A stretch of DNA of 64,000 nucleotides from Halobacillus salinarum (GTDB lineage: Bacteria; Bacillota; Bacilli; Bacillales; Halobacillaceae). The stretch is taken from NCBI RefSeq assembly GCF_022919095.1, contig NZ_CP095073.1, positions 3,906,001 to 3,970,000 on the forward strand, in the 5' to 3' direction. Both the position numbers and the translations under genes were made by a program. Positions 14,442 to 20,451 of this stretch are shown here, one piece after another; position 1 is the first letter of the stretch, and every line of letters begins with the position of its first letter. Under the pieces are notes generated by a model, which was not told the origin of the DNA, made no database searches, and was given only the letters and a program-made list of their open reading frames with translations.

Positions 14442-14813
14442 TTACTTATCATCTACTGATATTTTCCCTAGAAAAAAACCGTCGACTTCCTCAATTTTTC
14501 CCCTCCAATGAAATTCACTGTCAGAAGGGGTAGGCTGAGAATCACCATTGTATACCTGAGCATTCTTCAAATGAATGAAAGCTGCCGTGTCTTCTCCATT
14601 TTCTTTTGCCGACTGACTGGAAGCACTCAATTTTTCCCCTATCGCTTGAGATACTTCATTTCCTTCTTCAAATACATTTGAGAGAGATTCCAAATAGCGC
14701 TGTGCTGAAATCGTTGTGCCCGAAATCAATGCCCCATTAATATTAAGAGTGATATCAAGAGAAAAATCATGCTGGTTTGCGGCCTTCACAAACGTCAATA
14801 ATAAATCATCCAT
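14442..14813 (-). CDS. gvpU: Gas vesicle protein GvpU
   Basis: A 123-residue protein, last in the operon, in the GvpU position of the B. megaterium cluster. It starts at ATG 14813 (MDDLLLTFVK) after AAAGGAGA, just beyond the gvpT stop at 14840. The N-terminal half looks like a small beta-rich domain (DITLNINGALISGTTIS). GvpU family members are accessory; one is reported to influence vesicle clustering. The protein has no membrane segment. Identification rests on position plus family resemblance, so the role is less certain than for the structural genes. Confidence 0.8.
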   Translation of the reverse strand: MDDLLLTFVKAANQHDFSLDITLNINGALISGTTISAQRYLESLSNVFEEGNEVSQAIGEKLSASSQSAKENGEDTAAFIHLKNAQVYNGDSQPTPSDSEFHWRGKIEEVDGFFLGKISVDDK

Positions 14814-19488: not shown

Positions 19489-19779
19489 TTAAATACTGAA
19501 TTCACTTCGTTCATTAGATTGCTGCGGCTGAGAACGATCTTGATCTCCGATACGGTTTCCAAGTCCTTCTTCTTCTACTTCATCGCGCAGCAGACCTACC
19601 GCTTCTGCGTAGCGAAGCCACGTGTCCACACTAGCGATGACGACACGAGCTTCTACAGTTATTAACTCAATTCCTACTACGGACACACGTGCAAATGCGT
19701 CAATTACGATCCCTTTATCCAAAATACGGTCAATCACTTCGGCTAATCCTGAACTATCCGTTGACTTTTGTACTGCCAT
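19489..19779 (-). CDS. gvpB: Gas vesicle structural protein GvpB/GvpA
   Basis: A 96-residue major shell protein. The core, [20 protein letters not shown] then [20 protein letters not shown] and [14 protein letters not shown], is nearly invariant in GvpA/B. The shell forms from this hydrophobic protein alone, as stacked ribs. A polar tail ([20 protein letters not shown]) follows. ATG 19779 with GGAGAG is preferred to TTG 19785. Only this one GvpA-type gene is present; B. megaterium has an additional gvpA with gvpP upstream. Confidence 0.97.
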
Positions 19780-19802: not shown

Positions 19803-20378
19803 TTAAGAACTTAACGTGTTAATATTTGAAATCCCTTTTATATTTTCAGGTCCCTTAATATCTTCGGCACCTTTTATATCAGCATAGCTTTTTAAGTTGG
19901 CTGCACTTTTAATATCCTGGACACCGTTTAATCTCGCAGAGCTGTTTTTACTGCCTGAACTCATTGACTCGTCAATCTTTTCCTGCAATTCCTGTCCGGA
20001 TTCCTTAAAGGAAGCTACACCTTTACGGAGCTTTAATAAATTTTTCTGAAGCTGCTCCTTGGCTTCCCGCGCCTTAGAATGCACTTTCTCTGCATTCTTT
20101 TCCTTCTTTTCCTGCAGGTTTTCTGATAACTCCTCAGCTTCAGATTGCAGCTGTTCTTTGAATTGATGGCGGATTTGATCTCCAATTTCGTCTCTGATTT
20201 CTTCCGTGGCATATTCTTTTGCTTCTTTAGGATCGTCTGATTTCTTAATTACTCGGGTAAGACGCGGCACCGTCTTCTTCACTGCCTTGGCTGATTTTTT
20301 TACTCCTTTTTCGACAAAATCTTTTGCATTTCCAATCGGATGACTGGAGTGTTTTTCTTTCTTAATGGTTGTACTCAA
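19803..20378 (-). CDS. gvpQ: Gas vesicle protein GvpQ with a C-terminal hexapeptide repeat
   Basis: About 191 residues, first gene of the operon, in the GvpQ position. The first 150 residues are a charged helical/coiled-coil region (EAEELSENLQEKKEKNAEKV). The tail has six consecutive hexapeptides of the form x-[DN]-[IL]-[KN]-[GST]-x (QDIKSA, ANLKSY, ADIKGA, EDIKGP, ENIKGI, SNINTL). I prefer TTG 20378, with GAAGGTGG upstream, over TTG 20402, which lacks a site. GvpQ is accessory; its function is unknown, and the repeat is discussed separately. Confidence 0.82.
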   Translation of the reverse strand: MSTTIKKEKHSSHPIGNAKDFVEKGVKKSAKAVKKTVPRLTRVIKKSDDPKEAKEYATEEIRDEIGDQIRHQFKEQLQSEAEELSENLQEKKEKNAEKVHSKAREAKEQLQKNLLKLRKGVASFKESGQELQEKIDESMSSGSKNSSARLNGVQDIKSAANLKSYADIKGAEDIKGPENIKGISNINTLSS

Positions 20379-20451
20379 TATTCCACCACCTTCTAAAAGC
20401 AAACTATATTATTTACTTTGATACTTACCTTCCCATATGCACACGCTTCAA

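Follow-up and report, generated by a model that had tools for sequence, protein, structure and literature searches.

The gas-vesicle cluster of the window and the C-terminal repeat of GvpQ

The window, a stretch of 64,000 nucleotides of the Halobacillus salinarum genome, contains a gas-vesicle cluster on its minus strand with the gene order gvpQ, gvpA/B, gvpO, gvpN, gvpF, gvpG, a second gvpF/L, gvpS, gvpK, gvpJ, gvpT, and gvpU (Table 1). gvpT is only weakly assigned (16.9 bits; cut-off 80), and gvpS and gvpJ, two further Gas_vesicle-family genes, presumably correspond to the genes of those names in the B. megaterium gene order. The first gene was identified in the first-pass annotation as gvpQ, and we reached the same identification: its product scored 142.1 bits against NF041670 (cut-off 100), with residues 42-183 aligned to profile positions 5-137 of 137. 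A terminator-like hairpin was observed just past gvpA and before gvpO (19481-19458, minus strand). Such a hairpin could limit read-through and lead to gvpA being made in excess; it may also be a chance occurrence, because the scan returned 5 such sites against 4.7 expected.

Table 1. Features of the gas-vesicle cluster discussed in the text (positions in the window)
Feature	Position	Strand	Basis
gvpU, accessory gene	14442..14813	-	NF041667, 168.7 bits
gvpA/gvpB, shell gene directly after gvpQ	19489..19779	-	PF00741; NF006874, 120.6 bits
Acidic C-terminal extension of GvpA, ending EFSI, net charge -5	19492..19590	-	Translation of the window's own gene (L028)
gvpQ, with two candidate TTG starts giving 199 aa (first TTG) or 191 aa (next TTG, at 20378)	19803..20402	-	Open reading frame and NF041670
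Tail repeat of GvpQ, six hexads: QDIKSA, ANLKSY, ADIKGA, EDIKGP, ENIKGI, SNINTL	19812..19919	-	Translation, shuffles, conservation, selection in relatives
First four residues (LNGV) of a degenerate seventh unit, LNGVQD, which runs into the first hexad	19920..19931	-	Loose rule only
GvpQ core, three predicted helices (residues 19-46, 50-92, and 102-140 in the 191-aa reading)	19959..20324	-	AlphaFold2, pLDDT about 46-63 per block

Six consecutive units of the form x-[DN]-[IL]-[KN]-[GST]-x had been reported at the C-terminus of this protein. In the minus-strand translation, all six hexads fit this form, and they are followed only by two serines and the stop codon (19803-19805). We defined a loose unit rule in which [ILVM] is followed by K, R, or N every six residues. 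Under this rule, the run in the window's GvpQ comprised 7 units when LNGVQD was included, and 5 if only Ile or Leu followed by Lys was accepted. When periods from 2 to 15 were scanned with the loose rule, the proposed period of six proved to be the best, with a run of 7, followed by its multiple 12 with a run of 4, while all others gave 1 or 2. Shuffling the whole protein 200,000 times and the tail alone (last 42 residues) another 200,000 times gave a longest run of 5 (2 and 1 cases, respectively), with no shuffle reaching 6 or 7. At the DNA level, the repeat was much poorer than in the protein (TRF: 18-bp period, 2.7 copies, 75% match). The units differ in the synonymous codons used for Ile (ATT/ATA), Lys (AAA/AAG), and Gly (GGT/GGA/GGG), and Ser codons vary as well; the repeat is therefore not a fresh duplication.

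Conservation, selection, and distribution of the tail

To compare the C-termini of GvpQ relatives, we searched for NF041670 at a threshold of E 0.001. Matches were found in 36 of the 44 genomes of the window's family (35 above the cut-off) and in 104 of the 397 genomes of its order (76 above the cut-off), some of the weak ones not being GvpQ (L115 and L118 had no frame, and L117 had no tail). From 120 loci, 118 GvpQ-like frames were obtained with our own profile, 116 of them distinct, the window's gene being represented twice (L001 and L028). One of these, L117/L194, was rejected as GvpQ on the grounds of a weak core match, the lack of a tail, and the lack of gvp neighbours in 19.5 kb, and remains inside the counts of 118. 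Runs of at least four hexads were present in 114 of the 118 frames and runs of at least five in 109. The longest runs had 9 units (6 frames) or 8 (1 frame), most had 7 (33), 6 (49), or 5 (20), and the remainder had 4 (5), 3 (2), 2 (1), or 1 (1). At eight loci (L017, L020, L026, L090, L104-L106, and L111), the loose rule gave totals of 11-14 units in more than one block, although these totals may count chance pairs within the core.

The consensus unit, derived from 687 units in the 109 proteins with runs of at least five, was [SVAYP]-x-[DN]-[IVL]-K-[SG]. Position 1 was Ser, Val, Ala, Tyr, or Pro, position 3 was Asp (38%) or Asn (21%), position 4 was Ile (70%), Val (15%), or Leu (12%), and position 6 was Ser (41%) or Gly (39%). 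Position 5 was Lys in 97% of the units; the rule used to select units covered positions 4 and 5, but it admitted K, R, or N and did not impose the preference for Lys over Arg and Asn. A second scan of 57 named loci, 29 of which were sequence-identical to a member of the first set, revealed runs of 5 to 8 units in all 57. These loci came from Rossellomorea, Pseudalkalibacillus, Metabacillus, Halobacillus, Thalassobacillus, Gracilibacillus, Domibacillus, Staphylococcus simulans, and others. The expectation that the repeat is kept across the GvpQ family was thus borne out.

Two side observations concern individual loci. In S. simulans (L174, L175), a gvp cluster with a GvpQ tail is accompanied by a GvpA whose C-terminal tail ends in KYSV. 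A contig labelled as a Clostridiales metagenome-assembled genome (L162) carries a Bacillus-type gvp cluster that falls among Bacilli on the gvp tree and may be misbinned.

We further estimated selection along the gene. As the window's own genus is represented by a single genome, these figures come from other loci. Across 10 Rossellomorea-type loci, pN/pS was 0.143 in the N-terminal part, 0.067 in the core, 0.386 in the linker, and 0.076 in the tail, where pS was 0.53. Across 6 loci of the window's family, it was 0.154 in the core, 0.394 in the linker, and 0.158 in the tail. Purifying selection on the tail is as strong as on the core, unlike on the linker, and the tail is therefore selected rather than a free spacer. 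That it is nonetheless a neutral low-complexity spacer is hardly credible: the number of units varies, but strong purifying selection has acted amid many silent changes, and the units use different codons. The tail repeat is real, conserved, and selected, and it marks GvpQ across Bacilli.

Next, we investigated where else the tail occurs. A tail profile of 30 positions, applied to the 397 genomes of the order at E 0.01, yielded 135 matches in 95 genomes. Of these matches, 131 lay at GvpQ loci and 3 beside gvpA, namely a GvpQ-like frame in G169 and the gvpQ slot in G337 and G394. The single match elsewhere (G267, L196; E 0.0024) had no gvp match in 19.9 kb and was taken as chance. PF00741, representing gvpA, matched 113 of the 397 genomes; 94 of the 95 genomes with a tail-profile match also had gvpA, and 19 genomes had gvpA only (Fisher 1e-70, ignoring ancestry). 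Eight of these 19 belong to one genus (g15) and match the GvpQ model, with tails that the tail profile missed; the five that were read (L092, L093, L096, L097, L098) were all decayed, with several units lacking Lys.

In 11 of the 113 gvpA genomes, no GvpQ match was found at E 0.001, indicating that a gvp cluster can exist without GvpQ. Nine of these 11 loci were inspected: in L199-L206, none of the frames examined ahead of gvpA was GvpQ, and in L207, gvpK and gvpJ were the only gvp genes seen. Some of these clusters have peculiarities of their own. L203 (5157-5915) and L204, both on the minus strand, have GvpA frames of 252 and 298 residues with a long low-complexity C-terminal extension, and in L205 (minus strand), a cluster without a GvpQ match, gvpN is split into two separate frames as if interrupted.

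In all 57 named loci and in all 16 divergent loci, the first gvp gene to follow gvpQ was gvpA, in the same orientation. The divergent loci (L179-L193 and L195) were taken from 20 stretches, of which the other four are L194, L196, L197, and L198. In L197 (8829-10004) and L198 (8858-10012), from G394 and G337, respectively, the gvpQ slot beside gvpA is occupied by an acidic protein of 385-392 residues. This protein did not match the GvpQ profile, and its C-terminus, GVKTSSDIKGANDIKNV, consists of two GvpQ-type units, suggesting that the tail may be portable.

Across the 397 order genomes to which the tail profile was applied, the tail is nearly confined to gas-vesicle loci, and this gene context supports the vesicle-related role that the first-pass annotation had proposed. 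Among viral contigs, we found no GvpQ relative, and among phages, no tail match. The one plasmid match, at E 0.05, lay antisense to a gene annotated as hypothetical, in a neighbourhood of spore-coat and exosporium genes, and was taken as chance. A phylum-wide probe with a 40-residue tail hit 1 of 398 genomes, the window's own; since the GvpQ-bearing G123 was missed, this negative result means little.

Predicted structure and possible roles of GvpQ

We modelled GvpQ with AlphaFold2 using alignments of 43 and 49 rows. In both models, the core was helical and the tail was irregular apart from three-residue helical turns, with no strand. Confidence was low (mean pLDDT 52.5 and 57.1; pTM 0.22 and 0.19), leaving room for structure formed on binding or assembly. 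These low-confidence models suggest a helical core with an unstructured tail. On a Uversky plot of mean hydropathy and charge, the window's tail fell slightly on the folded side (H 0.454 against 0.413) and the core on the disordered side, which speaks against plain disorder of the tail.

One possible explanation, to which we assign a probability of about 0.43, is that GvpQ is a helical rod with a flexible, multivalent array of short motifs acting at the gas vesicle. In this model, the rod would bear at its C-terminus an array of [small]-x-[DN]-[IVL]-K-[GS], one unit every six residues. Each unit would serve as a weak sticker that offers one aliphatic side chain beside one lysine, and, in combination, the units would bind with avidity to a partner at the gas vesicle that is itself repetitive. 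GvpQ would then decorate, space, or bridge vesicles rather than build their wall. The varying number of units is what an additive motif array would allow. An accessory role also fits the omission of gvpQ from working minimal clusters: according to the available text of PMC11264329 and PMC11223475, the shortened B. megaterium cluster with which E. coli forms vesicles lacks gvpA, gvpP, and gvpQ. From these patterns, we infer that the motif array binds, that its target is the vesicle surface, and that it has a role in spatial organisation. Because a conserved and selected array is nearly confined to gvp loci, the GvpQ tail is expected to do something specific in its natural hosts, and this job is probably vesicle organisation. 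Against the model stand the gvp clusters without GvpQ, the g15 tails in which several units lack Lys, and the position of the window's tail on the Uversky plot. Nor does charge attraction explain the pattern: the tails are net positive on average, but the window's own tail is neutral, and the C-terminal tails of GvpA (charges of -3 to -6 in 6 loci) are acidic whether or not GvpQ has a tail.

A more specific proposal is that the tail takes part in gathering vesicles by acting specifically with GvpU and with the acidic C-terminal tail of GvpA, which ends in a hydrophobic motif (FSI or LNFA). In the available parts of PMC10903477, gvpU is reported to mediate vesicle clustering, and GvpU and GvpT to aggregate vesicles via the extended GvpA C-terminus, whereas the available text of PMC11223475 states that the effect of GvpU on clustering could not be confirmed. 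We searched for gvpU (NF041667) in all 113 gvp genomes, treating it as linked when it lay within 15 kb. It was linked in 82 of the 94 tail-bearing genomes and in none of the 19 tail-less ones (p 8e-14). Of these 19, 12 had no GvpU match and 6 had one that was either about 100 kb distant or on a different contig. The remaining genome, G081, had a partial match of uncertain position relative to gvpA and was counted as unlinked (p 4e-12 if linked). Counted by genus, with mixed genera counted twice, the ratio with and without gvpU was 26/7 for tail-bearing and 0/6 for tail-less genera (p 5e-4). The GvpA terminal motif showed a similar pattern, being present in 108 of 114 tail genomes and in none of the 13 tail-less genomes read (31/4 against 0/5 by genus, p 2e-4); the motif expression was written post hoc, a hit in whichever GvpA copy of the stretch was accepted, and L084, which ends in AFGI, was scored as lacking the motif.

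The gvpU match begins less than 1 kb from the gvpQ tail match in 9 genomes. In families f25 and f2, gvpU lies at the start of the cluster, less than 1 kb from gvpQ, and not at the far end (L179, L180, L181, L186, L187, L190, L191, L193, L195). A GvpU-like protein scoring about 70-78 bits was also seen far from the gvp genes in G097, G132, G160, G186, G341, and G417, while G052, G210, G259, G322, and G361 have such a distant protein plus a strong, cluster-linked gvpU.

These associations were evaluated on a tree of GvpF, GvpK, GvpJ, and GvpG from 70 clusters, on which a cluster was labelled as tail-bearing when it had a run of at least 4 units with Lys (L192, L197, and L198 scored 0). The tree required 4 changes for the tail label and 6 for the motif (70 clusters), and 4 for GvpU (44 rows). 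On well-supported branches, it provided 3 independent pairs, a number that cannot reach significance: the motif was concordant with the tail in about 2, discordant in 0, and without difference in about 1, and GvpU was concordant in about 1.5 and discordant in 0. The decayed-tail g15 genomes L209-L212 group with L197/L198, apart from their tail-bearing congeners L213-L215, and the contrast within this genus is therefore not a loss within one lineage. The co-occurrence of the tail with GvpU and the GvpA motif does not survive correction for ancestry, and much of the raw association may be due to shared cluster ancestry. Moreover, tails persist without both GvpU and the motif in L216, L217, and L218, and without GvpU alone in L182-L185, L188, and L189. 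The acidic extension of GvpA is not specific either, as it is also present in L199, which has no GvpQ, and in L092, which has a decayed tail. Joint action of the tail with GvpU and the GvpA terminus is accordingly doubtful.

The tail might instead bind to itself, with the tails of several GvpQ molecules stacking to surround vesicles with a scaffold of cross-beta or condensate type. A period of six would place all Ile residues on one face of an extended strand, and both the hydropathy of the tail and the varying number of units are consistent with such stacking; the absence of predicted strands in both models speaks against it, and we regard this arrangement as rather improbable. Tethering of vesicles to the membrane, the nucleoid, or the division machinery appears improbable to a still greater degree. 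The tails are net positive on average (+4.3 in the last 42 residues over 118 frames) and the core has an apolipoprotein-like match, at 22.4 bits far under the Pfam cut-off of 90, but the net charge of the window's tail is 0 and no Pfam anchor family reached its cut-off for GvpQ.

The first-pass annotation had suggested that the repeats form a small beta-solenoid. The exact period of six, with one Ile/Leu-type aliphatic residue per unit, stood up to examination and is shared with the hexapeptide repeat of the left-handed beta-helix, and the Uversky plot, which places the window's tail marginally among folded sequences, points the same way. The strands expected of such a fold were absent from both low-confidence models, in which the tail appeared unstructured. 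The rule for the left-handed helix is [LIV]-[GAED]-x2-[STAV]-x, and it does not fit the tail, because 97% of units have Lys directly behind the aliphatic residue. None of 31 tails matched the hexapeptide or pentapeptide families of Pfam at E 1, and a search of solved structures found no relative of the tail, the best match being a guanylate kinase at E 0.94. In addition, 102 of the 118 tails have only 5-7 units in a run, corresponding to about two coils of 18 residues. A beta-solenoid or hexapeptide ladder is thus very unlikely, and the flexible motif array remains our preferred reading.

Comparison with known systems

The first-pass annotation knew of no description of the repeat, and our search of the open literature on GvpQ and gas vesicles, a scope that does not take in the GvpU study, likewise found no account of a six-residue repeat. 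The available text of PMC11267810 merely lists GvpQ, and no function of GvpQ is stated there or in the available text of PMC11264329 and PMC11223475. The tail residues themselves already lie inside a known family model. NF041670, the NCBIfam equivalog for GvpQ, covers most of the tail with its end, and further matches to its positions 107-137 occur in longer tails, for example those of G003, G006, and G007. Its entry gives the family name only and states neither a repeat nor a role, so that the repeat as such is apparently undescribed. According to the available text of PMC11264329, the B. megaterium clusters engineered to serve as acoustic reporters lack gvpQ. For control of how vesicles are spaced or clustered, the tail would be a short genetic handle.

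Among gas-vesicle proteins, a parallel is offered by GvpC of cyanobacteria and haloarchaea, which, like GvpQ, is a repetitive accessory protein and which, in the available parts of PMC10903477, is described as removable without loss of the vesicle. The GvpC repeats are described there as 33 (32-38) residues long and helical, with Arg, Leu, and Phe on one face. In contrast, the GvpQ repeat spans six residues, is not predicted to be helical, and has neither Arg nor Phe in its consensus, and GvpC had no Pfam match to GvpQ at E 0.1.

A second parallel lies outside gas vesicles. CsoS2 of alpha-carboxysomes is a disordered scaffold in which VTG and Y motifs recur, as described in the available text of PMC11365436. 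By analogy only, its multivalent use of a repeated short motif in a disordered region at a protein shell resembles what is proposed for the GvpQ tail. The GvpQ tail has the repeat and its conservation; two low-confidence models show it as unstructured, yet the window's tail plots with folded sequences by the Uversky criterion. The two also differ in that CsoS2 is required for carboxysomes, whereas gvpQ is dispensed with in working minimal clusters. A bolder and in our view unlikely extension of this analogy is that the tail is a portable sticker ladder, the gas-vesicle counterpart of CsoS2. In that case, each IK unit would engage one GvpA C-terminal tail, about every 12 A along the rib, the GvpA spacing given in the available parts of PMC10903477, and the number of units, alone or with GvpU, would set how tightly vesicles are bundled.
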